From a bacterium (lineage in GTDB: Bacteria > Planctomycetota > UBA11346), in contig JAIFND010000013.1 in the NCBI GenBank assembly GCA_020047915.1, forward strand, positions 1 to 35,440: a stretch of DNA of 35,440 bases. The letters run 5' to 3'. The position numbers were made by a program, and so were the translations under genes. Numbering within the stretch: the stretch's first letter is position 1; every line of letters starts with the position of its first letter. Positions 7,149 through 34,971 of this stretch are shown one piece after another. Below the pieces are notes generated by a model. It had not been told where the DNA came from and searched no databases. It worked only from the letters and a program-made list of their open reading frames with translations.

Positions 7149-10100
7149 CTAACGCCGGCGGCGGCGGATGAGCCAAGCCACGAGCGGGATGCCGAGCAGC
7201 GCCAGACCCATGCCGCCGCCGCAACCGCTGCCGTCCTTGTCGGTCTGGATGACGACGCGGAAGGTGCGGGTGGCGGTCAGCACGCCGTCAGTCGCCGTCA
7301 CCTGCACCAGCGCAAGACCGGCGCTGGCGTTGGAGGTGACGTTGAAGGTGTACGTGCCGATGCCGTTGCCGCCAGGCGAACTGGTGAAGGCCACCGGGTT
7401 CGCGATCACGTAGGGATTGAGGCTGACCGCGGTAACACTCAGGGTTTCCGGCAATGATAGGGGCTGTCCGGCAGCCACATCCACGTCATCGGCGGCGGTC
7501 GAGACACTAACCGATCCGCCTCCCTTGGGGAAGACGATGTCAGCAATGCCGGTCAGGGTCGGACGGTGGCTGTAGCGCACGCTCAGGCCGGTATCGCACA
7601 CCTTCATGTGCGCCTGGCCAGCCGGACGCGGGCTGTTCATGATCGTCGAGGGGGAACCGTCGTCATTGCGATCGAAGGCGTCGGTAGGCGTCGCCGCAAC
7701 GGCAGCGGTGGCAGCAGGGGTCGGAAGGATGGTGACCGAACTACGACCAAGCGGGATGGCCGGGTTGGCGATCCACACCATGCCTTCTCCCGGAGTGGCC
7801 GACGCTGGGGTAATGCTGAGAATCAGATCCCCACTTGTCGCGCGCGAGGTCGTGACCGGCAGTGCCGCCGTGGCGGCAGATGTGGCGTCGTCGTTCCAAT
7901 AACCCTGCGTCACATTGACGTTGCCAGCCGAGCTGCGGAAGCCGCTGCCGATCACGGTCAGGTTGTTGGTCTCGCCGATCGCGACGCCGGTTGGCGAAGT
8001 GCTGGAAATGGTGGGGTTAGGATAGGTCTGGAAACCGTAGAGGCGCAGGTCCACCTTTTTGATCTGGCCGAAGAAGGTTCCCCCGAATTGGGACTCGTCC
8101 TGCATCAGCAGTTGCCACTCATTGTACCACAGCGGGTCGATGGCGCGCCCGGCGGAGGTCGTTGTTCCGGCGGGCGGATTCTTGGTGTAGGCCGGCTCAC
8201 CCCAATGGACGAAGGAGGTGAAGGTCCATTTCCAGATGCCGTTCTGGTTGATGATCGTGCCGGGGCGCTGGCGACCGAGATAGGCCGTGGTGCCGTAGAT
8301 CTTGTTGGGCGGTGCCGAGACCAGATCGACCGGCGGCGACACCAGCAGGAAGTGCCAATCGCCCGAGTTCGCCTGGCTGTTGGCAGGCGGACTGGGCGTG
8401 GTCATCTCGACGTCGAGTTCGACCGCCTCGACCCGGAAGTTGGCTGGGAAATCAGAGGTCGTCGGATCGACGCGCAGCGGCGTGCGGGTCCAGAAGCTGC
8501 TGGGTTTGGGGGCATTGTCCGCCACCGTGGTGCCAGCGTCGATGTCCGGCGGAGGAAGGCCGGCAATGTCCACTCCCGGTGTTACCCATTCCTCCACGAT
8601 CGCGTTGGGCTCGCCCAGGATATAGCTGTAGGATGCGGTGACCGGATTGGTCAGCATGGCCGGCATCAGCGGCCAATCGAGGGCGCCGGGTTCCTCAACG
8701 CCGCCGCCGTTGCCGCCGTTGATCAATGCGTTCACATTGAGCGCGCCAAAGCCGTAGCGACCGTTATAGACCAAGTTGGTCTTGTTGGGCAGCCACCAGC
8801 CCCAGGGGTCATGGGGAAGGCCGGTGGTTCCAAACGGTGCAATGTCAGTCTTGTCCTGGCTGCGCTGCACCATCAGGGCGCGGACGTCGCGCCAGTGCAG
8901 ATCTGTCCGCGCCTGCATCATCAGAACGCCGGCGCCACCAGCCAGGGCAGCGGCATACGAGGTGCCGGCCAGGAGGCTCTTGGGCGGCACATAGCAGCCG
9001 TTCTCGTAGGCGAGGTTATCCGGATCCTTGTAGCGGATGTTGGGATCGGGCCAGGCATCAGGGTTGGGCAGCGGGTTCGCTTGCGGCACGCCGCGCCGAT
9101 CAACAACCAGGGCATCGTCACCAAGGTTCGGCGCCGTGGTTCCATCGTCCATGCCATCGACGGCCCGATTGGGATTCAGCGGGGGTGTGATGGTGACGTA
9201 GTCATTGGTGTCAAAGTTGCAGCTGTTGCGGGCGTACCAGGTGCCCGATTCCGACACCGTGTAGGGCAGGTCGTTCATCCAACCGATCCGTCCGGTCCAC
9301 GGGCCTGGATTGCCGGGATCCGGCCAGGCGTCGGTCGGGTCGGTGGTGCAGATGCCGGGGAGAGGGAGGGTGGGTATCGGTGAGCCAGCCGGGGCAGAGG
9401 CAATCAGGTTGGGGCCATACTCGCTGAACAGGGCCTTGACGTAGCTCCTGGTGTGACCGGCGATCGGGATGACATGCCGGTTGAGGTATCCATCGAAAGA
9501 CGAGCAGTCCTGATACGAAGTGTTGGCGAAGATGAAGCCGAACTCGCCATTCGTGACACCGTCATACTCCGGATCACCCCACCGGGCATTCGGATTGAGG
9601 TGACCACCATTGCCTGCCGCCCAGAAGATCGGCGAACCGAAGCCGCCGCGGCCGTAGGCGCCAGCATCGCGCAGGCCCTGGACCACAGTCAGGGCGTCGG
9701 GGGCGTAGGTGCTTTGTCCGTTATCGACCGGACCCCAGGCGCAGACGATGGCCCAGGTGCGAAAGTTGAGGCTGGACGCGTTGAGCTGGTTGGTGATTGC
9801 GCTACGCAACCGGTCATTGGGGGTTGCCACGCTGCCGAGAATCGAGCGCCGATCCTCGGACTCGTCGTAGATCTCGGGCAGCACCTTGCTAACGAAGAGC
9901 TTGGAGGCCCACGCAACGCCCGATACACCAATGCCATTGTCACCGACGGCGCTCAACAGACCTGCCATGGCGGTGCCATGATAATCGCTAATGCTCTCCA
10001 TGTTGGGCAGAGCGTCGTTGCGCAGGTAGTCCCGGCTGTAGGTCATGTTGACGTTGCCGACGAGATCCTCGTGCGCGACATCAACACCACCATCAATCAG

Positions 10101-14277: not shown

Positions 14278-14694
14278 CTACTTCTTGGCGTTGGCGCGTT
14301 CGTTGGTGACGTTCGTGCTGATCGCACCCTTGTTGAAGGTGGCGACCACCGATTCGGCGCCCTTGCCGATGCGCACATCGACGGTGGCCTCGCCGACCGC
14401 CTCGATCACGCCGTGCACGCCGCCGATGGTGACGACCTCGTCACCACGCTTGGTCGAATCGACCATCTCCTTCCGGCGCTTCTCTTCCTTCTTCTGCGGA
14501 CGGATGACCATGAACCACATCATCAGGACCATCAGGCCGAGGAAGATGAGCATGGGCCACATCGAACCGCCCTGGGCCGGGGCGCCGGTGGGGGCGCCGC
14601 CCGGGGCCGGGCCGGCGGGGGCGCCGGGATTCGGGCCGCCCTCCTGGGCGAGAAGCAGGGCTGCGGTGGTGAGAAGAAGTACGATGCGGTGCAT
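14278..14694 (-). CDS. yajC: Preprotein translocase subunit YajC
   Basis: YajC (138 aa) is the small inner-membrane partner of SecDF. It begins with a hydrophobic segment (IVLLLTTAALLLA), followed by a Gly/Pro/Ala-rich linker (about 18-44). The conserved single TM is MLIFLGLMVLMMWFMVIRPQ, and the basic cytoplasmic stretch KKEEKRRKEM and the YajC core DEVVTIGGVHGVI follow. The N-terminal extra hydrophobic segment plus Pro/Gly linker makes the protein longer than the roughly 110-aa E. coli form. The ATG at 14694 is used; the ORF-track entry extends 580 codons further only because it is antisense to tig. It is followed by secDF after 63 nt on the same strand. Confidence 0.93.
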   Translation of the reverse strand: MHRIVLLLTTAALLLAQEGGPNPGAPAGPAPGGAPTGAPAQGGSMWPMLIFLGLMVLMMWFMVIRPQKKEEKRRKEMVDSTKRGDEVVTIGGVHGVIEAVGEATVDVRIGKGAESVVATFNKGAISTNVTNERANAKK

Positions 14695-14790
14695 GACGGG
14701 TCCGTGGCGGTGCCGTGGAACGGGAAAATGAGGCAGCACCGTACAGGTCGCGGCGAGGCCGCAAGGCTGGGCGCGCTGGCGCGCGGGGGG

Positions 14791-14969
14791 GGCGGAAGGA
14801 GGAAGGCGGAAGGAGGAAGGCGGAAGGCGGAAGGCGGAAGGCGGAAGAAATGCTTGGGCCCAGTCTGGTGCCGTACCAGGTCGATGCAGGTCGGCTGAGT
14901 CTGGGTGACGAATGTCCGATCGCGCAATCCAGCGACCCTTCCGCCTTCCGCCTTCCTCCTTCCGCCTTG
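14791..14969. repeat. GGCGGAA heptamer inverted-arm element between yajC and tig
   Basis: The left arm (14791-14848) is eight tandem 7-mers, GGCGGAA or GGAGGAA. The right arm (14937-14969) is the reverse complement, and about 32 nt match the left arm exactly, including the position of the variant GGAGGAA unit. The spacer is about 88 nt and starts with GAAATGCTTGG. The element sits in the 408-nt gap between divergently transcribed yajC and tig, so it is not at the end of either gene. The rest of the gap holds a small GC-rich stem (about 15011-15033) and the leader of tig; no gene is seen. Confidence 0.9.
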
Positions 14970-15102
14970 CGTCGCCAAGATTCCTTAACGCAACGCCATT
15001 GGCCCCGGCCCCCGCCGGGGTCCATCCGGACCCGTCCCTAACCTCCTTGCCCCCGCCGGCCCACGACGCACACTGCGCGCCCTTTTCGCGGGAGCTATAT
15101 CC

Positions 15103-16377
15103 ATGCAGGTCCAGGTCGCCGACGCCGGTACACTCGCCAAGCGCGTCACCATCAGCTACACCGCCGCCGAAGTGGCGGAACGCAAGCAGCAGCTGATCAA
15201 GCGGCTGGGTGCCGAGATGAAGCTGGAAGGCTTCCGCCCGGGCAAGGTGCCCAAGGCCGTGCTGGAGAAGCGCTACGGCGCCGCCGCCCAGGCCCAGGCC
15301 GAGGAGGCGCTGGCCGATGACGGCATGAACCAGGCGATCCGCGAGAAGAACCTGCGCCCCTTCGGCCAGCTGGTCAACGAAGGCGTCGAGCGCAAGGACG
15401 GCCTCGCCGTCACCGTGTCCTTCGAGACCTATCCGACGATCGCCATCCCCGCTCCCGCTTCGCTCAAGGTCGAGGCCGGCGATACCGCCGTCACCGATGC
15501 CGAGGTCGAGGAGTTCGCCGGTTCGATCGCCAAGCGTCTTGGCGACATGAGCGCCCTGGGCGCCGACGAGACGGTGGCCGAGGACGACTCGGTCACCCTC
15601 GACGGCTCGCTGTCGGTCGGCGGGGCCGAGATCCGCAAGCTGGCGCAGTTCAACCACCTGGTCGGCGGCTACCCGCTGTTCGGCAAGGATCCCAAGGAGG
15701 TCGTCGCGGCCTTCGCCGGCAAGAAGGTCGGCGACAGCGTGGCGATCACCACCACCCTGCCCGCCAACTTCACCCCGGCCGAGCACGCCGGCAAGGAAGC
15801 CGCGCTCGCCGTGACCATCGCCGCGGGCAACCGCATGCGCCCGGCCGCCCTCGACGACGCGCTGGCCGTGAAGGTCGGCGCCAAGGATCTCGCGGCGCTC
15901 AAGGAGACGCTCAAGCTGCGCATCGCCTCGCGCAAGCAGGGCGAGGTGCGTGGCAAGCAGCTCGAACAGCTGGTCGCCGCCCTGCTCGCCCAGATCCAGG
16001 TCGAGCTGCCGCCCAAGGCCCTCGCCGCCGCGATCACGCGCAGCGAGGCCGAGGCCGAGAAGCGCGCCACCGAGGCCAAGCAGGACGTCGCCAAGGCCAA
16101 GGCCGAGGCGGTCGAGACGCTGAAGAAGAACTTCCAGCGCCACTGCATCATGGTCGCCCTGGGCGACCACCTGAACATCCAGCTGACCGATGACGATTTC
16201 CGCGAGCAGATCATGATGGCGGCGCAGCAGACCGGCCGCAAGCCGCAGGACATCGCCGAGCAGCTGCAGAAGAGCGGCCAGGGCGCCCAGGTGGCGATGG
16301 AGATCCGCGAGGCCAAGGCCCTCGAGACCTACCTCGACCAGGTCCTCGGCCAGGCGGCGGGTACGGCAAAGGCCTGA
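15103..16377 (+). CDS. tig: Trigger factor-like ribosome-associated chaperone
   Basis: Trigger factor (424 aa) binds the ribosome exit tunnel and shields nascent chains. The N-terminal domain (about 1-115) carries the ribosome-binding signature GFRPGKVPKAVLEKRYG. The middle FKBP-like region (about 150-235) is divergent; the usual aromatic peptidyl-prolyl isomerase residues are not obvious, so isomerase activity is doubtful. The long helical C-terminal chaperone arms (about 240-420) are rich in Ala/Lys/Glu. GGGAG precedes the ATG by about 9 nt. It is the first gene of the plus-strand block, followed by rpiB after 46 nt rather than by the clpP-clpX pair common elsewhere. Confidence 0.93.
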   Translation: MQVQVADAGTLAKRVTISYTAAEVAERKQQLIKRLGAEMKLEGFRPGKVPKAVLEKRYGAAAQAQAEEALADDGMNQAIREKNLRPFGQLVNEGVERKDGLAVTVSFETYPTIAIPAPASLKVEAGDTAVTDAEVEEFAGSIAKRLGDMSALGADETVAEDDSVTLDGSLSVGGAEIRKLAQFNHLVGGYPLFGKDPKEVVAAFAGKKVGDSVAITTTLPANFTPAEHAGKEAALAVTIAAGNRMRPAALDDALAVKVGAKDLAALKETLKLRIASRKQGEVRGKQLEQLVAALLAQIQVELPPKALAAAITRSEAEAEKRATEAKQDVAKAKAEAVETLKKNFQRHCIMVALGDHLNIQLTDDDFREQIMMAAQQTGRKPQDIAEQLQKSGQGAQVAMEIREAKALETYLDQVLGQAAGTAKA

Positions 16378-16383
16378 TGCTCC

Positions 16384-16396
16384 GGGGCATTGCCCC
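16384..16396 (+). terminator. Weak 5-bp hairpin after tig
   Basis: GGGGC-ATT-GCCCC begins 6 nt after the tig stop codon and is followed by a pyrimidine-rich stretch. It is too short to be a confident terminator, and rpiB could be read through. Confidence 0.3.
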
Positions 16397-16423
16397 TGCC
16401 TGTCTGCCCCTAGCCTGCCTCTC

Positions 16424-16894
16424 ATGAAGCTCGTCATCGCCGGCGATCACGCGTCGCCCGCCCTCAAGCGTGCGCTGGTTCACCATCTGCGCGGCCGCGG
16501 CCATCAGGTCGAGGACCTCGGCACGGATGGAGAGTCCAGCGTGGACTATCCCGACTACGCCGCCCTGGCCTGCCGCGCCGTGCTCGACGGCCAGGCCGAG
16601 CGCGCCGTGCTGATCTGCGGCACCGGCATCGGCATCGGCATCGCCGCCAACAAGATCCCCGGCATCCGCTGCGGCATCGCCCACTCGGTCGATACCGGGC
16701 GTCTCGCCTGGGAGCACAACCGCGCCCAGGTCCTGGCGATCGGCGCGCGCGTGCTCGACAGCCGGACCGCCACCGCGGTGGTCGATGCCTGGCTCGACGC
16801 CAAGGCCGACGAGGGTCCGCGCCACCAGAACCGTATCGCCAAGATCGCCGCACTGGAGAACCCCGCATGTTCGACCGCCTCAAAACCCTGCTGA
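16424..16894 (+). CDS. rpiB: Ribose-5-phosphate isomerase B
   Basis: RpiB (156 aa) interconverts ribose 5-phosphate and ribulose 5-phosphate in the pentose phosphate pathway. Family hallmarks visible are the N-terminal IAGDHAS, DYPDYA (about residues 41-46), and the active-site loop ICGTGIGIGIAANKIPGIRCG. The Cys in that loop is the usual catalytic base. The length is normal. The last 28 nt overlap the start of the next gene in another frame, so the two are likely to be translationally coupled. Confidence 0.95.
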   Translation: MKLVIAGDHASPALKRALVHHLRGRGHQVEDLGTDGESSVDYPDYAALACRAVLDGQAERAVLICGTGIGIGIAANKIPGIRCGIAHSVDTGRLAWEHNRAQVLAIGARVLDSRTATAVVDAWLDAKADEGPRHQNRIAKIAALENPACSTASKPC

Positions 16895-20550: not shown

Positions 20551-21291
20551 TCACTTCGCCTTGGGCTTGGTCATCGTCGCCTTGTAGGTCACCGAGCCGG
20601 CCGGTGCCCGTCCGCTGGCGTTGGACAGGCGCAGCAGGGCGCCCTTTGCCTCGGCCGGCACGGTCCAGGTCCAGGCCTGTTGCATCGTACCGGGTGGAAT
20701 TTCCTGCAACACTCCGGCCTCGGTCGCCAGGACCAGGCGGTAAAGCGAGCGCGAGGCGGCCTCATCCGGGCTGAGCATCGGCTGCACACCCTGACGGAAG
20801 GTCCAACTGCCGGACTGGTATTGCAGGCTGATCTGGGTGCCGGCCGGCAGATCGCCGATGATCAGCGGCTTGTCAGCCTGGATCACGATGGTGCTCTGCC
20901 ACGGCTTGCCCATCACCGGTCCGGCGCCGTCACCGAGCAGGTCCGCTCCGGCACTCTCCTCGCTCTCCAGTTCGGCCAGCACCTTGTCGAGCTGCCCGAT
21001 CGAGGTGAAGAACTGGCGCGCATCAGGATGCTGGTCATCGAGGCGCAGCACCGCCTTCCACGCCTTGACCGCCCCCGGCATGTCGCCCTTGGCAAGCAGG
21101 CGCTTGGCGATTGAGGCGATGGCCGGGGTCGATTTGTTCCGCTCCTTGGTCACGCCGTCGTCGTAGGTCTTCTGCAGTTTGGCGACCGCCTCGTCATAGC
21201 GCCCAAGTTCCTTGACCAGCGGGTCGTCCTCCGCCGCCAGGATGACGAGGGCCATGAGGAGCAGGGACAGGGGGCGAAGCATGGACGGCAT
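20551..21291 (-). CDS. Exported protein of unknown function with a TPR-like region
   Basis: This is an unrecognised 246-aa protein. The N-terminus MPSMLRPLSLLLMALVILAAEDDP is a short signal peptide, so it is likely periplasmic. Residues about 25-105 are helical and charged, with a TPR-like stretch (AKGDMPGAVKAWKAVLRLDDQHPDA). The second half (about 125-246) looks like a beta-sandwich (STIVIQADKPLIIGDLP, GTQISLQYQSGSWTFRQ, YKATMTKPKAK). The start at 21291 is chosen because upstream residues in the ORF-track entry run into the kinase gene region and the signal peptide begins here. It lies 46 nt after the PfkB gene on the same strand and may be the last gene of that operon. Confidence 0.75.
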   Translation of the reverse strand: MPSMLRPLSLLLMALVILAAEDDPLVKELGRYDEAVAKLQKTYDDGVTKERNKSTPAIASIAKRLLAKGDMPGAVKAWKAVLRLDDQHPDARQFFTSIGQLDKVLAELESEESAGADLLGDGAGPVMGKPWQSTIVIQADKPLIIGDLPAGTQISLQYQSGSWTFRQGVQPMLSPDEAASRSLYRLVLATEAGVLQEIPPGTMQQAWTWTVPAEAKGALLRLSNASGRAPAGSVTYKATMTKPKAK

Positions 21292-21337
21292 GCTAGTATT
21301 ACGCCCATGGAGCCAACCCTGTTGGCGTCGGGAAAGC

Positions 21338-22438
21338 CTACAGGCCTTCACTCCCCCAGCCCCGGCAGGCGGCGATGATGTCGGACAATCCGGCACTGGC
21401 CCCGGCACGCACGAAGCTGCCGCTGGTCGCGCAGCCCAATGCGAGGCGCTGGTCGGCGGGCAGGCCGAGCATCAGGCCCAGCCCGTAGCCGGCGTTGAAG
21501 CGGTCGCCCGCCCCGGTGAGTTTCACCGGCGTGGCCGTCCACGGTCCGCGCACCGCGCTGTCGGCCGTGGCCGCATAGTGCAGGGCGTGGACCACCACTT
21601 GCACGCCGATCGCCGTCTGCAGGCGGGCGGCCAGGGCGGACAGAGACGCATCGTCGGTGCCAGGCGCGACGCCGAGCAGACGCGCTAGCGCGTTGGCCTC
21701 GTTGAGGTTGACACCCAGGGTAGCGTCAGCGGCGCGCGCCATCGACGGCAGCACCGCGAGCATGGCGCGGACATCCTCCGACGAACGGCCACCTGGATCG
21801 ACCAGGTCGAGGATGATGGCCGGACGGTGGGCAAGCCGACTGAACACCTGCTCGGCGATCAGTTTCCATACCTCGGTCATGTGCGGATAGAGCGTCCAGT
21901 TGGTCAGCGCGATCAGGCGCGCCCGCGCACAGGCGGCTGGGAAGGCGCCTGCCAGCAGCGCGCGCTGCGCCAAGGCGACATCGAGGGCGGCCAACTGCGC
22001 GACTGCCGGCAGCATCAGCTTGCCATCGGCGAACTCGAGGGCGAGGGTGCGTCCATAGACCTCGCCGAGCGGATGCACGGCGGCAAGCCGCGCCAACACC
22101 GGGGCGAAGGCGCGATGCGGCGGGGCGCCGATGGTGGCGAACAGCTCGACCCCGACCCCGAGGGCGGCCAGGCCATCGGCGCAATTGATCGCGCAGCCGC
22201 CCGCATCTTCGCGGTGCACCACGATCTCGCGCAGGCCGCTGCGCCCGGCCGCCGCCGCAGCCCAGCCGGCGAAATCGGTAATGCTGCGCATCGGCGTGAA
22301 ATCGTCGATGCCGCGTCGGGTGCCGACCACCTGGATCATCTCATCGACGAAGCCGTCGAAACCCGCCACTGCGCGCAAAGCGGGGATCTTGCCCTGCCGC
22401 GCAGCCAGGGTCTCGGCAAGGCGGTGATAGACGCTCAT
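21338..22438 (-). CDS. PfkB-family carbohydrate kinase
   Basis: This is a ribokinase-fold sugar kinase of 366 aa. The N-terminal lobe shows AGFDGFVDEMI (substrate loop) and DAGGCAINCADGLAALG. The C-terminal PfkB signature with the anion hole and catalytic Asp is LTGAGDRFNAGYGLGL (D312). The substrate cannot be read from sequence. Coupling to the upstream mannitol-phosphate-dehydrogenase/isomerase gene makes fructose, or another ketose made by the isomerase, the best guess. The ATG at 22438 overlaps the stop of that gene by 4 nt (ATGA). The first 206 residues of the ORF-track entry are out-of-frame sequence of the upstream gene. Confidence 0.9.
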   Translation of the reverse strand: MSVYHRLAETLAARQGKIPALRAVAGFDGFVDEMIQVVGTRRGIDDFTPMRSITDFAGWAAAAAGRSGLREIVVHREDAGGCAINCADGLAALGVGVELFATIGAPPHRAFAPVLARLAAVHPLGEVYGRTLALEFADGKLMLPAVAQLAALDVALAQRALLAGAFPAACARARLIALTNWTLYPHMTEVWKLIAEQVFSRLAHRPAIILDLVDPGGRSSEDVRAMLAVLPSMARAADATLGVNLNEANALARLLGVAPGTDDASLSALAARLQTAIGVQVVVHALHYAATADSAVRGPWTATPVKLTGAGDRFNAGYGLGLMLGLPADQRLALGCATSGSFVRAGASAGLSDIIAACRGWGSEGL

Positions 22439-24069
22439 GGGCAGCGCACGATCTGGGCGTCGGTGAACACATCGGCCTCGTCGCGGCTGCGCGTCGAGAA
22501 CTCGCTGACCACTGCGCCCTGCGGTCCGGCGGTGAACCAGTGCTTCACATTCGGGCCGAGGGTCGCCTGGTCGCCGGGCTTGAGATGCACGGTGCGGAAC
22601 ACCGTCACCGCGCCGCGCTTGTCGCCAGGCAGACGGGCCAGCGCAGCGGCCTTGTCGGCCTCGCCGTGATCGCCGGCGAGATGCAGGAACACCTCGCCCT
22701 GGCGCACGCGGAAGGTCTCCTCCTTGCCCGGATCGCCCTCGATCGGCGGGTGGCGGTGCTCGGGACAGGTCTGGCCCGGCGTCATCATCAATTCCTTGGC
22801 GCAGCAGCGCTTGGTGTTGACGTAGACGTGGATGGCGAGGCCGAACTCGGCGTAGCGGCCGAGGCCGAAGTCGGCGATCTCGATCGCCTCGGCCTCGTCG
22901 TCGCGCAGGGTGAGACCGGCAGCACGCATCTGCGCGGCGGCGGCGGCAGCGCGCTCGGCGCGCTGCAACTGGGTCATCGTGGCGGCCATGATCGGATCTC
23001 CGTCGCTCAGGTTGGCGGCGGCGCGCAGACGCGCCGCAGGGGACAGGGCGTTCCACTCGGCGGCGCGCGGTTCGTCCGGCGCGGGGGTGTAGCGGCAGGC
23101 GTCAGCGATGACCGCGGCGAGCGGCGCGATACCGACCCCCTGCGCCAGGCACAGCCGCGCCGCGCCGACCAAGCGGTCGTCGGCGGCCAGCTTGCGCCAC
23201 GGATCACGCGCCACGCGCGCCACCGGATCAGCCAGGGCGCGATTGCGGTAGCGCCCCAGCAGGTCGTCGGCGATCGCCAAGCTGTCGGCCTCGGCGCTGC
23301 CACCGTGGCGACGGCCGAAGGCAGCGGCCACCGCCACCGTCACGGCGCGGACCCGCGCAACCAGGCCATCATCAGCCATGCAGTCGGGAATGGTGGCGTA
23401 GCCGCGCAGATGGCCGCCGTAGGCCAGGCAGGCGTGGGTGAGGTTGTGCAGGTAGAGCTTCTGCGCGAGCACCAGGTCGAAGTCGTCCTTGGCAACCAGG
23501 CCGGGGACCTGCGGGATCGCGGCGCGGAAGGCGGCGCGTTCGACCGGCAGCTTGGCGTAGGGTTCGACGCGGATGTCGAGCGGATCCTCGCCCGGGCCGG
23601 GTGGCGGGATCATGCGTCCGATCGAGGTGCGCACGCAGCCGAAGCGGCCGTCGAGAGCGCCATCGGCGGCGAGGATCGCGGCGCGCAACTGCTCGTGCGC
23701 CTGGGCTCCGTTCTCGCACACCAGGATGTCGAGCGGCGCCGTCCGCGTACGGATGCCGGCAGCGAGCGGCGCCCCCAGGCGCGGCAGGACATTCAACCCG
23801 ACCGCCGTGGCGGCGAGATCGCAGGCCGCAACCGCCGCCGCAACCGCCGTCTGGTCGCGGCCGTCGATGATCGCCACCCCGCGCACCTCGGTGACGCGCT
23901 CGCCGCTGTTGTCGACCAGACGCACGCGATAGCCGCCGCGCGCACGCAGGCCCTCGACCAGGACGGGGGAGACATCGACGAAGACGATGCGCCAGCCGGC
24001 CGCTGCGAAGGTCGGGGCGATGAAGCCGCGTCCGATGTTGCCGGCGCCGAACTGCACGAGGGTGGGCAT
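22435..24069 (-). CDS. Fusion: mannitol-1-phosphate dehydrogenase-like domain + D-lyxose isomerase-like cupin
   Basis: This 544-aa protein has two recognisable enzymes. Residues 1 to about 375 match the MtlD/polyol-phosphate dehydrogenase family: the Rossmann start VQFGAGNIGRGFIAP (7-19), the NAD-site stretch VCENGAQ, and the catalytic motif K204-x4-N209-x2-H212 (KLYLHNLTH). MtlD interconverts mannitol 1-phosphate and fructose 6-phosphate. Residues about 385-544 are a cupin of the D-lyxose ketol-isomerase type: CPEHRHPP (H438, H440), KEETFRV (E450/E451), NVKHWF (H510) and the family-like EFSTRSRDEADVFTD. Such isomerases interconvert lyxose/xylulose and mannose/fructose. The reading frame is open across the join, and both active sites look intact. 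It is coupled to the PfkB gene by a 4-nt overlap. Domain assignment is by motif; substrates are inferred. Confidence 0.88.
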   Translation of the reverse strand: MPTLVQFGAGNIGRGFIAPTFAAAGWRIVFVDVSPVLVEGLRARGGYRVRLVDNSGERVTEVRGVAIIDGRDQTAVAAAVAACDLAATAVGLNVLPRLGAPLAAGIRTRTAPLDILVCENGAQAHEQLRAAILAADGALDGRFGCVRTSIGRMIPPPGPGEDPLDIRVEPYAKLPVERAAFRAAIPQVPGLVAKDDFDLVLAQKLYLHNLTHACLAYGGHLRGYATIPDCMADDGLVARVRAVTVAVAAAFGRRHGGSAEADSLAIADDLLGRYRNRALADPVARVARDPWRKLAADDRLVGAARLCLAQGVGIAPLAAVIADACRYTPAPDEPRAAEWNALSPAARLRAAANLSDGDPIMAATMTQLQRAERAAAAAAQMRAAGLTLRDDEAEAIEIADFGLGRYAEFGLAIHVYVNTKRCCAKELMMTPGQTCPEHRHPPIEGDPGKEETFRVRQGEVFLHLAGDHGEADKAAALARLPGDKRGAVTVFRTVHLKPGDQATLGPNVKHWFTAGPQGAVVSEFSTRSRDEADVFTDAQIVRCP

Positions 24070-24232
24070 GGCGACCAGTATGCAGATCAGGCTGCGACAG
24101 GAATGCCTGGGGGAGCGCCGGGCATGCCTGGAGTACTACATTCGGCGACTCGATGTACAGGAGGCGCAGAGACACAGAGATTCGAAAGGGGTTAGAGATT
24201 CGGCACCGTTCATACTAAACACGGCGATAAGG

Positions 24233-24365
24233 GGCCACACAGAGCACCAGAGTGACCAGAGAGAGCATGGTTTGCACGGCGCATTGGCTTTCACCGTACG
24301 GGTGAACACGAGAAATCATGCAAAGCCTTGTCTTGACCTCTGGTAGCTCTGGTGCTCTGTGTGAA
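24233..24365. repeat. CACAGAG/CCAGAG-type inverted-arm element
   Basis: The left arm (24233-24266), CACACAGAGCACCAGAG then GACCAGAGAGA, faces the right arm (24327-24365), GACCTCTGG then CTCTGGTGCTCTGTGTG, its reverse complement with minor changes. The spacer is about 60 nt. A related fragment, GGCGCAGAGACACAGAGA, lies just before it (about 24163-24180). The 311-nt gap 24070-24380 contains no other feature I can support. Confidence 0.85.
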
Positions 24366-24380
24366 ATGCGGTCTCTGGGA

Positions 24381-24491
24381 TCAGTCCCGCGGATCGCCCC
24401 TGCCGTTCTTGCGCTGCATCGCCACCACGACGATGACCACGGTCAGGCAGACCAGTACCGCCAGGACGCTGACGAAAATCAGGATCTTCAC
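24381..24491 (-). CDS. 36-aa single-pass membrane microprotein coupled to the SPFH gene
   Basis: This gene is not in the ORF track. A GTG at 24491 overlaps the TGA of the SPFH gene by 4 nt (GTGA). A good Shine-Dalgarno AAGGAG (complement of 24497-24502) sits 5 nt upstream, inside the last codons of that gene. The product is one hydrophobic helix with a short basic tail: MKILIFVSVLAVLVCLTVV, then IVVVAMQRKNGRGDPRD. The helix spans about residues 3-25, and the tail would be cytoplasmic by the positive-inside rule. I infer a small subunit or regulator of the SPFH complex. Function is unknown. Confidence 0.78.
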   Translation of the reverse strand: MKILIFVSVLAVLVCLTVVIVVVAMQRKNGRGDPRD

Positions 24492-31650: not shown

Positions 31651-31769
31651 GGTCACACAGAGCACCAGAGAGACCAGAGGGAAAGGGTATTGTAGGGTGC
31701 GACCCGGGAACCAGCGACATCGCGCTAAGCCTTGCCTTGACCTCTGGTCGCTCTGGTCCTCTGTGTGAA
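31651..31769. repeat. CACAGAG/CCAGAG-type inverted-arm element, second copy
   Basis: The left arm (31651-31684) begins GGTCACACAGAGCACCAGAG. The right arm (31726-31769), AGCCTTGCCTTGACCTCTGG ending in CTCTGTGTGAA, is the reverse complement and is nearly identical to the right arm at 24327-24365 (AAGCCTTGTCTTGACCTCTGG). The spacer is about 41 nt and differs from that of the other copy. It lies in the gap between divergent protease and kinase genes. The GTG used as the ORF-track start of the LRR kinase (31765) is inside its right arm. Confidence 0.88.
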
Positions 31770-31818
31770 TTCCCTGGTCTGGGTTGAGCCTTCGATCCTT
31801 CCGGCTAGCCTCGCCGCC

Positions 31819-34800
31819 GTGACCGCCTCCAGCACCCACGGTACGCAACCCGGCGGATCCGACGTCGAACGCACCATCGGCGGCGTCGATTCCGCCGCCG
31901 CCGTATCCATCCCGCTGGCCCCGCCCGAGCGCGGCTACCGCGTCGAACGGCTGCTCGGCAAGGGCGGCGAGGGCGAGGTGCACCAGGCGTTGCAGCTCGC
32001 CTTCGGCCGCGCCGTCGCCGTCAAATCCCTGCGCAACCCCACCCCCGATCCGCGCCAGATCCGCCGCTTCCGCGCCGAGGCCGCGGTCACCGCCCTGCTG
32101 GAACATCCCAACATCATCCCGGTCCACGACCTGCGGGTCGCCGAAGACGACCGGCTGCAACTGGTGATGAAACGGGTCAGCGGGCAGACCTGGCGGGGCC
32201 TGCTCGATGGCGCTCCGCCCGGACCTGGCCGCCGGCCACTCAACGGCGAGGAGCACATCGAGGTGCTGCTGAAGGTCTGCGACGCGGTGTCCTTCGCGCA
32301 CAGCCGCGGCATCCTGCACCGCGACCTGAAGCCCGAGAACGTGATGGTCGGCGAGCACGGCGAGGTGCTGGTGATGGATTGGGGCTGCGCCTGCCACGTC
32401 GGTCCGACCGCCCCGCATCCCGACATCCCCGTGCTGACCGCCCTGAGCGGGGTCAGCGGCACGCCGGCCTACGTGTCGCCCGAGCAGGCGCGCGGCGAGC
32501 ACGCCGCGTGCGGGGCATGGACCGACGTCTACCTGCTGGGCGGCATCCTCTACCGCATGCTGACCGGCAGTCCGCCACACCGCGCCACCGGCGTGCAGCA
32601 GGCGATTGCCCAAGCCGCGCGCGGAGAGCCGGTCGAAGACCCGTCGCAACGCGCCGGACGCAAGGTGCCTGGCGAACTGGCGCGCATCGCCATGGATGCG
32701 CTGCATCCGGATCCGGCCCGCCGCCTGCGTACGGTCAGCGAAATCGCCACCGCCATCCGCCGCTACGTCGAACACCGCGAAGTCCACCGCCTGCTCGCCG
32801 AGGCGCGTCGCCAGCACGAACTGGGCAAGGCCGGTGGAGCCGACAGCGACGATGCCTACCGCCGCGCGATCGGTGCCGTCGAACAGGCGGTGCAACTCTG
32901 GCCAGAGCAGGCCACCGCCCGTCGCCTGTTCGTCGAGATCGGCCTCGACTCCGCCCGTCACGCCATCGCGGCCGGCTCGTTCCGCGTCGGGCGTCGGCAG
33001 GCGCAGGCGGTGGTCGCCGAAAGCGAGCGCCTTGGTGACGGCGCCAACGCCGAGACCGCGACCAAGATCGTGGCGCTGGCCGACCTGCGCGACCGGCAGG
33101 CGCGCGGCCGCGAGGCCCAGGCGCGCAGCATGCGTCGCCTCGCCGTCGGCGGCGCCGTGGTCGCCGGCCTGGCCCTGGTCGTCGGCCTGCTCGCGGTCTG
33201 GCGCGAAAGCACACAGACCGCCCAGGCGCTCGCCGCCGCCCAGGCCAACCTCGAACGCGCCGAGCAGGAGCGCGCCGCCCGGGTCGAGGGCGAACGCCTG
33301 GCCGCACCGGCCCTGCTGTCGCAGGCCCGCGAGCTGGCCCTGCAGCGCAAGTACGATGAAGGCCTGCAGCTGGCGCTGGCCGCGCAGGGCTTCGCGCCCG
33401 AGGATGCGGCCGCACCTCTGATCGCCGCCCAGCTGCTGATCGCTGCCGGCCGGCGCACCGAGGCGATCACCGCCCTCGACCAGGCTCTCGCCCTGCGCCC
33501 CGATCCGCTGGTCGGCGAACTGCGCCAGCTCTGCCTCGCCCCGCCGGCCGACGCCGACGCGCGCATCGCCGAGACGTTGGTGCGTCTCGGCGCGGGGGCG
33601 ATGACCGGGGGCCTCAACCTCGCGGCCGAGAAGAAGGCGCAGTTGGCGCGCAGTCAGTTGACGGCCAGCTGGCCAAAGCTCGCTCCGCGCAACATCACCG
33701 CCCTTCCCGACGGCACCCTCACTGTGCGTCTGAGCCGCGGCGACTGCGAGATCGACAGTCTCGAACCGTTGCGCGGACTGCCGATCTCCAACCTCGACCT
33801 CTCCGGCCAGGACCGCGTGCGCGACCTGGCGCCGCTTGCCTCGCTGCCGCTCACCAGCCTGATCCTGAACGGCTGCGCCGCCAAGGACCTTGCCCCGCTC
33901 GCCGGGCTGCGGCTGCGCCGACTGTCCGCCGGGACGCATGTCCTGGATGCCGCGGACCGGCTGCACGGCATGCCGCTGGAGGCGCTCGACCTGACCTGGA
34001 GCGGCCAGGACTCGCTCGCGGCCTTGGCTGGCCTGCCGCTGCGCGAACTGCGCCTCTACGGCTGCGACGTCCTGGCCGACATCTCCGCTGCGGCGGCCAT
34101 GCCGCTCGAGGTCCTGGCGCTGGAGGCGAATGGCAATCGCCCGGGCGGTCCACTCAACGATCTACGCCCCCTGCGCGGCAAACCGCTGCGCGACCTGTCC
34201 CTGCTGTGGCAGCGTGGCGTCACCGAACTGGCGCCACTGCAGGGCGCTCCGCTCGGCCGCGTTGCGCTGACCGGAACCGCGATCGCCAACCTGGCGCCGA
34301 TCGCCCAGCCGGCGCTGCGCAGCCTGCTGATCAGCGAGACCGCGGTCGCCGAGCTCAAGCCGCTGCTCGGCCTTCAGCTCGACACCCTCGAACTCTCCCC
34401 GCAGCGCATCCGCTCGCCGCTCGCCGATCTGCGGCGGATCACATCCCTGCGCCTGGTCAACGGCCTGGCGCGCGACGACTTCATCCGCTGGTGCGACCTG
34501 CAACGGGCGATCGTCGCCGCCAACCCGGACTACGCCTGGAACGGCCGGGCGGTGTACAAGGACGGGAAGCCCAGCGAACTGCGCTTCAGCAGCGGACTGC
34601 GCACGGCCGATCAGCTGCGCGGACTGCCTCTCTCCCTGCTCGAACTGTCCTACTGCCAGGTCGCTGATCTGGCGCCGCTCGCCGGCCTGCCGTTGATCGA
34701 GCTCAACCTGTCGCGCAACAAGGCGAGCGACCTGAGGCCGCTCGCCGGCCTGCGCTCGCTGCGCCGGCTGAACCTGGTCGGCTGCCCGGTCGAGGATCTG

Positions 34801-34971
34801 CGTCCGCTCGCCAAGCTGCAGTTGGAAAGCATCGCCTTCTCGCCGCGCGCCAAGCTCGTCGGCGTCGAGGTGCTGCGCGGCATGTCCACGCTGAAACATC
34901 TTAGCGCCGGCGGACCGAGCCTCTCCCCGACCCAATTCTGGTCGGCCTGGGATCGCGGGGAGATCAAATAG
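31819..34971 (+). CDS. Ser/Thr protein kinase with a membrane segment and leucine-rich-repeat C-terminus
   Basis: This 1050-aa protein (1068 in the ORF track; ORF-track numbering below) has a kinase domain at about 58-340: LGKGGEGEVH, Lys in VAVKSL (K87), HRDLKPEN (D187) and DWG in place of DFG (205-207). DWG is common in kinases of Planctomycetes. A helical juxtamembrane region follows, then one TM (about 459-479), a coiled stretch, a TPR-like pair (about 515-585), and about 15 leucine-rich repeats (about 660-1045), with units such as LAPLAGLPLIELNLSRN. The LRR part would be periplasmic and could sense a ligand or partner. The start is uncertain; GTG 31819 is preferred because the 31765 GTG lies inside a repeat arm. 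It is followed 62 nt later by a STAS protein gene. Confidence 0.88.
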   Translation: MTASSTHGTQPGGSDVERTIGGVDSAAAVSIPLAPPERGYRVERLLGKGGEGEVHQALQLAFGRAVAVKSLRNPTPDPRQIRRFRAEAAVTALLEHPNIIPVHDLRVAEDDRLQLVMKRVSGQTWRGLLDGAPPGPGRRPLNGEEHIEVLLKVCDAVSFAHSRGILHRDLKPENVMVGEHGEVLVMDWGCACHVGPTAPHPDIPVLTALSGVSGTPAYVSPEQARGEHAACGAWTDVYLLGGILYRMLTGSPPHRATGVQQAIAQAARGEPVEDPSQRAGRKVPGELARIAMDALHPDPARRLRTVSEIATAIRRYVEHREVHRLLAEARRQHELGKAGGADSDDAYRRAIGAVEQAVQLWPEQATARRLFVEIGLDSARHAIAAGSFRVGRRQAQAVVAESERLGDGANAETATKIVALADLRDRQARGREAQARSMRRLAVGGAVVAGLALVVGLLAVWRESTQTAQALAAAQANLERAEQERAARVEGERLAAPALLSQARELALQRKYDEGLQLALAAQGFAPEDAAAPLIAAQLLIAAGRRTEAITALDQALALRPDPLVGELRQLCLAPPADADARIAETLVRLGAGAMTGGLNLAAEKKAQLARSQLTASWPKLAPRNITALPDGTLTVRLSRGDCEIDSLEPLRGLPISNLDLSGQDRVRDLAPLASLPLTSLILNGCAAKDLAPLAGLRLRRLSAGTHVLDAADRLHGMPLEALDLTWSGQDSLAALAGLPLRELRLYGCDVLADISAAAAMPLEVLALEANGNRPGGPLNDLRPLRGKPLRDLSLLWQRGVTELAPLQGAPLGRVALTGTAIANLAPIAQPALRSLLISETAVAELKPLLGLQLDTLELSPQRIRSPLADLRRITSLRLVNGLARDDFIRWCDLQRAIVAANPDYAWNGRAVYKDGKPSELRFSSGLRTADQLRGLPLSLLELSYCQVADLAPLAGLPLIELNLSRNKASDLRPLAGLRSLRRLNLVGCPVEDLRPLAKLQLESIAFSPRAKLVGVEVLRGMSTLKHLSAGGPSLSPTQFWSAWDRGEIK

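Follow-up and report, generated by a model that had tools for sequence, protein, structure and literature searches.

The window analysed here, i.e., the whole stretch of 35,440 nucleotides from the planctomycete contig JAIFND010000013.1 (assembly GCA_020047915.1), carries a gene in which a mannitol-phosphate dehydrogenase (MtlD) is joined to a sugar isomerase-type cupin, with a sugar kinase gene adjoining. The features concerned are the following.

22435..24069, minus strand: MtlD plus D-lyxose isomerase-type cupin fusion gene, including the stop codon (single open frame, domains, 12 other genomes)
23506..24060, minus strand: Mannitol_dh Rossmann domain, residues 4-188 (Pfam, E 1.5e-29)
23071..23466, minus strand: Mannitol_dh_C domain, residues 202-333 (Pfam, E 2e-21)
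22438..22944, minus strand: D-lyxose isomerase-type cupin, residues 376-544 (PDB match, residue mapping)
22987..22989, minus strand: internal ATG (Met361) at the site where standalone isomerases start (alignment of fusions)
22998..23001, minus strand: putative Shine-Dalgarno-like GGAG, 8 nt 5' of the internal ATG
21338..22438, minus strand: prokaryotic ketohexokinase of the PfkB superfamily (PF25270), 366 aa (Pfam, 143 bits vs cut-off 35)
20551..21408, minus strand: weak TPR-repeat protein, possible third operon gene with uncertain start codon (neighbour comparison)
24070..24487, minus strand: upstream gap of 418 bases with lower G+C, likely promoter region

The fusion gene is one frame of 544 amino acids that opens with ATG and has no internal stop. 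The sequence-only reading had placed a fusion at exactly 22435-24069 and gave no strand, which we find to be the minus strand. Mannitol_dh, Mannitol_dh_C and Lyx_isomer (PF07385) follow each other in this order, each above its Pfam cut-off, as had been anticipated; Lyx_isomer occupies residues 397-542 (E 2.2e-6, 27.5 bits vs the curated cut-off of 20.8). In a PDB sequence search, residues 5-349 match the mannitol-1-phosphate dehydrogenase (M1PDH) 3h2z (E 1e-50), while residues 351-544 match the D-lyxose isomerase 7nzo (E 2e-49) and residues 382-541 match the D-lyxose isomerase 2y0o (E 4e-48). Because domain and PDB matches cover both halves, we regard both as complete and the linker as almost absent. 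A cupin of some family other than the isomerases would have spoken against the claim; here, Lyx_isomer scores above its cut-off, and 7nzo and 2y0o are matched in the PDB. Whole-chain structure prediction was based on four aligned sequences and bears out one side of the join: the dehydrogenase half adopts a predicted fold with a TM score to target of 0.80-0.82 against 3h2z and 5jnm and thus fits the M1PDH fold, whereas the isomerase half was predicted with low confidence and resembles TsLI most closely (48% identity).

Is the join genuine? We sampled 392 genomes across the phylum, 23 of them in the window's family and 369 outside. Within this family of uncultured planctomycetes, 13 of 23 genomes, the window's included, carry the fusion; they come from nine genera, and the other fusions are 57-81% identical to that of the window. 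The join is uninterrupted in all 12 other genomes (11 at full length, one, G020, cut by a contig end). Outside the family, where the three best candidates per genome were scored, none of the 369 genomes has both halves in one frame, and the halves match only apart. This answers the question of how often the two are fused. It also makes it practically out of the question that an assembly artefact or frameshift joined two genes: the genomes are fragmented drafts, but an in-frame join common to 13 genomes of nine genera, at 57-81% identity to the window, excludes a chimeric contig. A scan of genome contigs with short exact patterns returned fusions only from Planctomycetota-type MAGs, one record being titled Candidatus Kuenenia. 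Plasmid-borne fusions were not found, the best plasmid matches being unfused MtlD. The fusion of G006 (L050, about 7400-7660) has some 90 low-complexity residues inserted in frame in its dehydrogenase half, near window position 160.

Conservation of active-site residues was counted over those fusions in which the given position is present. For the dehydrogenase half, the S. aureus enzyme SaM1PDH serves as reference, with the catalytic triad Asn119, Lys200 and Asn205, and a phosphate pocket of Arg283, Arg287 and Arg294 that its authors describe as a conserved feature of M1PDHs which mannitol 2-dehydrogenases (M2DHs) do not have (PMC6623548). The window residues K204, N209 and H212, which had been named as the key residues of this half, map onto K200, N205 and H208 of SaM1PDH, so this assignment is correct. 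Together with N120 they form the catalytic Asn/Lys/Asn set plus the substrate histidine, and all four are invariant among fusions. Residue mapping further places the NAD-binding N11, D32 and E119 beside the catalytic N120 in the Rossmann domain. The phosphate-pocket residues R288, R292 and R299, to which R285 and K293 are added in the window, are likewise invariant, and the arginine pocket is also complete in the other MtlD-family dehydrogenases checked. Nevertheless, the half stays below every NCBIfam equivalog cut-off for M1PDH (best 190 bits vs 356) and is thus to be seen as a divergent homologue rather than a proven M1PDH equivalog.

In the isomerase half, TsLI from Thermofilum is the reference; it holds its sugar and Mn by K62, H75, H77, K86, E88, H143, E156 and D163 (PMC8378251). 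The window equivalents K425, H438, H440, K449, E451, H510, E523 and D530 are invariant among fusions. Four of them, H438, H440, E451 and H510, correspond to the TsLI Mn ligands H75, H77, E88 and H143. The residues proposed from sequence, H438, H440, E450-451 and H510, are therefore right except for E450, which is not a ligand. TsLI is lyxose-specific, with less than 2% activity on mannose, which was put down to R175 (PMC8378251). Its counterpart (R542 in the window) is retained by the fusions, as it is by those standalone isomerases that reach this position; as a marker of the substrate, this arginine is thus not diagnostic.

The gene downstream is, by family match, a prokaryotic ketohexokinase. 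Its start codon shares bases with the stop codon of the fusion, in the sequence ATGA. The operon kinase and its orthologues form a clade apart from more distant paralogues that also occur in the family. Kinases of the operon clade are present in 18 genomes, and in 12 of these they lie at most about 330 nt behind a fusion or an unfused MtlD. In G007 the distance behind MtlD is about 2 kb, in G004 the kinase directly follows a standalone isomerase at a place with no MtlD, and in G002 it sits at a contig edge; for G016, G026 and G128, we found no fusion, MtlD or isomerase adjoining it. No copy was found in the incomplete genomes G005 and G009. The TPR-like gene has homologues in two other genomes, each time as two copies in tandem: in G005 (L041) they follow the fusion, in G007 (L051) they follow MtlD. 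Beyond this gene in three genomes, no conserved neighbour besides the kinase was found. A sigma-70-type promoter match was not found within 24070..24487. Similar gene sets occur in other arrangements. In G323, a member of another family, three separate genes lie side by side, first a distant dehydrogenase of the MtlD family, then a PfkB kinase and finally an isomerase, and G011 (L055, 3579-10824) shows an operon-like run of a class II aldolase, a fucose-isomerase-like gene, MtlD, ketohexokinase, DUF4432 and an alcohol dehydrogenase. In G004 (L092 3628-5621, minus strand), two serially overlapping genes without a Pfam match follow the isomerase-kinase pair and are possible pathway members.

From these observations we derive, as a reading that we hold to be somewhat more probable than its negation, a bifunctional chain with two independent active sites that are linked through the ketohexokinase of the next gene. 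The N-terminal half would work as an M1PDH-type dehydrogenase of polyol phosphates that depends on NAD(H) and interconverts fructose 6-phosphate and mannitol 1-phosphate, and the C-terminal half as a Mn-dependent cupin aldose-ketose isomerase, interconverting D-mannose and D-fructose and/or D-lyxose and D-xylulose. The cupin would turn an aldose into a free ketose, the ketohexokinase would phosphorylate it, and the MtlD half would exchange the ketose phosphate with a polyol phosphate. The kinase presumably fills the gap between the halves, because the isomerase gives a free ketose while the dehydrogenase keeps its phosphate pocket. Most likely, free mannose, obtained for example from mannan, would be taken up and end as fructose phosphate, mannitol phosphate forming a side pool with a redox or osmolyte role; the joined gene may provide co-expression at a fixed ratio and keep the activities close together. 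Both activities, the substrates, the direction and any gain from proximity are what we infer. The sequence-only reading had the two halves link mannose/fructose isomerisation to fructose 6-phosphate/mannitol 1-phosphate chemistry. Of this, the fusion is real and both active sites are complete, but the link is not a direct one, a kinase step that this reading did not mention being needed, and the mannose/fructose part is uncertain.

As to the sugar, mannose to fructose is favoured because standalone isomerases of relatives adjoin a beta-mannosidase-type gene or the kinase. In G014, a beta-mannosidase-type GH2 gene with mannosidase domains precedes the standalone isomerase by 2 nt. In G011, the isomerase gene is flanked on one side by a GH2 gene and on the other by an MtlD-family dehydrogenase gene whose start overlaps it. 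Altogether, an unfused isomerase, always of the E. coli type, takes the place of the fused cupin in three family members that lack the latter, and the two never occur together in a genome; by a hand calculation, this mutual exclusion would arise by chance alone in about 7% of cases and is only suggestive. A mannitol PTS was considered as the source of mannitol 1-phosphate and rejected as unlikely, since none of the 23 family genomes has a PTS EIIC above cut-off; EIIA_2 matches are many in these genomes. Neither is a missing phosphomannose isomerase the reason for a free-sugar route, the type I enzyme being present in 18 of 23 family genomes. Several points speak against the kinase-linked reading: the haloarchaeal ketohexokinase yields fructose 1-phosphate (PMC11519228), while M1PDH normally uses fructose 6-phosphate; the kinase does not adjoin the fusion in G016, and G005 and G009 yielded no copy of the operon clade; TsLI is lyxose-specific, and the R175 equivalent R542 is kept; G007 and G014 lack the cupin; and the dehydrogenase half stays below the M1PDH equivalog cut-offs.

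The same chemistry is compatible with a neutral fusion, and the two readings differ on whether the joining matters. Here, the stop codon between two co-operonic genes would simply have been lost, the halves working as before and the internal start perhaps also being used; we rate this as possible, though doubtful. Its history can be followed in the trees. In the MtlD tree, every fusion falls into one clade with a support of 100/100, and the unfused MtlD of G007 and G014 lie inside that clade. In the isomerase tree, 12 of the 13 fused rows group together, though weakly supported: the fused isomerases form one group in 54% of the bootstraps, and the best tree needs two changes. The simplest reading of both trees is that the fusion arose once and the cupin was then lost twice, in G007 and in G014, although G014 is on a long branch. 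The join would then be dispensable, because G007 and G014 stand inside the fused clade without the cupin. Such probable losses agree with neutrality, as does the retention of the ancestral isomerase start: the position of Met361 is ATG in 12 of 13 fusions and GTG in the remaining one, and GGAG, GAGG or a similar Shine-Dalgarno-like sequence precedes it in nearly all of them. Pairing with the anti-Shine-Dalgarno sequence averages -6.3 kcal/mol at this start vs -2.8 kcal/mol at other in-frame ATGs. However, when synonymous codons were shuffled, 4.75% of the draws were as strong and most of the signal was reproduced, the fusion rows being related to each other. A working internal start is thus only possible, because the control accounts for most of the pairing signal, and a separate isomerase might be made from Met361 besides the full-length protein, the evidence for this being marginal. 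Against neutrality stands the fact that the join was kept across nine genera of the family. In either case, the preserved internal start codon may be regarded as a natural record of two neighbouring genes becoming one.

In a pentose version, the cupin would act as a D-lyxose isomerase, the kinase on D-xylulose, and the MtlD half would reduce the xylulose phosphate to an arabinitol phosphate. We consider this rather unlikely. It draws on the closest solved isomerase, which is lyxose-specific, and on the restricting arginine, which is conserved in the fusions. The MtlD half, however, fits M1PDH models best, and the standalone isomerases of relatives adjoin beta-mannosidase-type GH2 genes, though these isomerases belong to the other, E. 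coli-type subfamily. FGGY-type kinases, which could serve xylulose, are present in all 23 family genomes; this, too, counts against the pentose version, and a lack of xylulose-type kinases was rejected.

It is improbable, in our view, that both halves converge on the free ketose, the dehydrogenase oxidising mannitol to fructose, the cupin turning mannose into fructose, and the ketohexokinase forming fructose 1-phosphate as in the mannitol breakdown of Haloarcula. The module logic resembles the H. hispanica pathway (PMC11519228), and a class II aldolase is part of the G011 operon; but the arginine phosphate pocket, which M2DHs reportedly lack (PMC6623548), is complete in every fusion and in the other dehydrogenases checked.

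The product of the kinase would allow one further route. Mannitol is symmetric, and an identical mannitol 1-phosphate results from the reduction of fructose 1-phosphate at C2 and from fructose 6-phosphate (C5 of the product). By this chemical reasoning, mannose could pass via fructose, fructose 1-phosphate and mannitol 1-phosphate to fructose 6-phosphate without a 1-phosphofructokinase, and the gene could give two products, the complete enzyme and, by way of the internal start, an isomerase on its own; we regard this combination as highly improbable.

Compared to known systems, the parts are familiar and their combination is not. The MtlD enzymes of S. flexneri (3h2z) and S. aureus (5jnm) share the same two domains, the catalytic Lys/Asn/His and the arginine phosphate pocket, whereas the window protein falls below the NCBIfam equivalog cut-offs for M1PDH and has a C-terminal isomerase. 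The D-lyxose isomerases of the B. subtilis and Thermofilum type (2y0o, 7nzo) are about 44-48% identical to it and share all metal and sugar ligands and the R175 equivalent; they are standalone enzymes, while here the isomerase makes up the C-terminal part of a longer chain. The bifunctional MtlD of Acinetobacter (NF046057; 7ocn-7ocu) is likewise a single chain in which MtlD is joined to another sugar enzyme. Its partner is a mannitol-making HAD phosphatase, in contrast to the C-terminal cupin isomerase with an adjoining kinase gene described here. The sequence-only reading had named a HAD phosphatase as the partner in known MtlD fusions, in agreement with the NCBIfam model bifunc_MtlD and with 7ocn and the other A. 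baumannii structures. In our fusion, a HAD domain gave no match (the partner being PF07385), and no phosphatase was found beside the gene. The mannitol module of Haloarcula hispanica (mannitol dehydrogenase, ketohexokinase, 1-PFK and aldolase) offers an analogy in that a polyol dehydrogenase again goes with a prokaryotic ketohexokinase; it has no fusion and no isomerase, and its dehydrogenase acts on free mannitol (PMC11519228).

The only bifunctional model that the NCBIfam search returned was the phosphatase fusion, and the literature searched held no paper on mannitol-1-phosphate and lyxose isomerase together. What we describe is a new chain built from two known enzyme families and accompanied by a conserved kinase partner; since the genome survey covered the Planctomycetota, priority is not certain. 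From a biological point of view, this adds to the MtlD fusions a kind whose partner is an isomerase and not a phosphatase, and points to a compact module of isomerase, kinase and polyol-phosphate dehydrogenase that occurs in several arrangements in the Planctomycetota. It provides testable substrates for a ketohexokinase family of little-known bacterial role and suggests a way in which these bacteria may use mannose without prior phosphorylation.

Two further genes of the window are worth recording. Positions 31765-34971 of the plus strand encode a protein of 1068 aa that has a Ser/Thr kinase domain and, towards its C terminus, weak matches to leucine-rich repeats. The YajC frame (14278-16437, minus strand) is open far upstream across the opposite trigger factor gene (15103-16377, plus strand), and the true YajC start probably lies much later than the opening of the frame.
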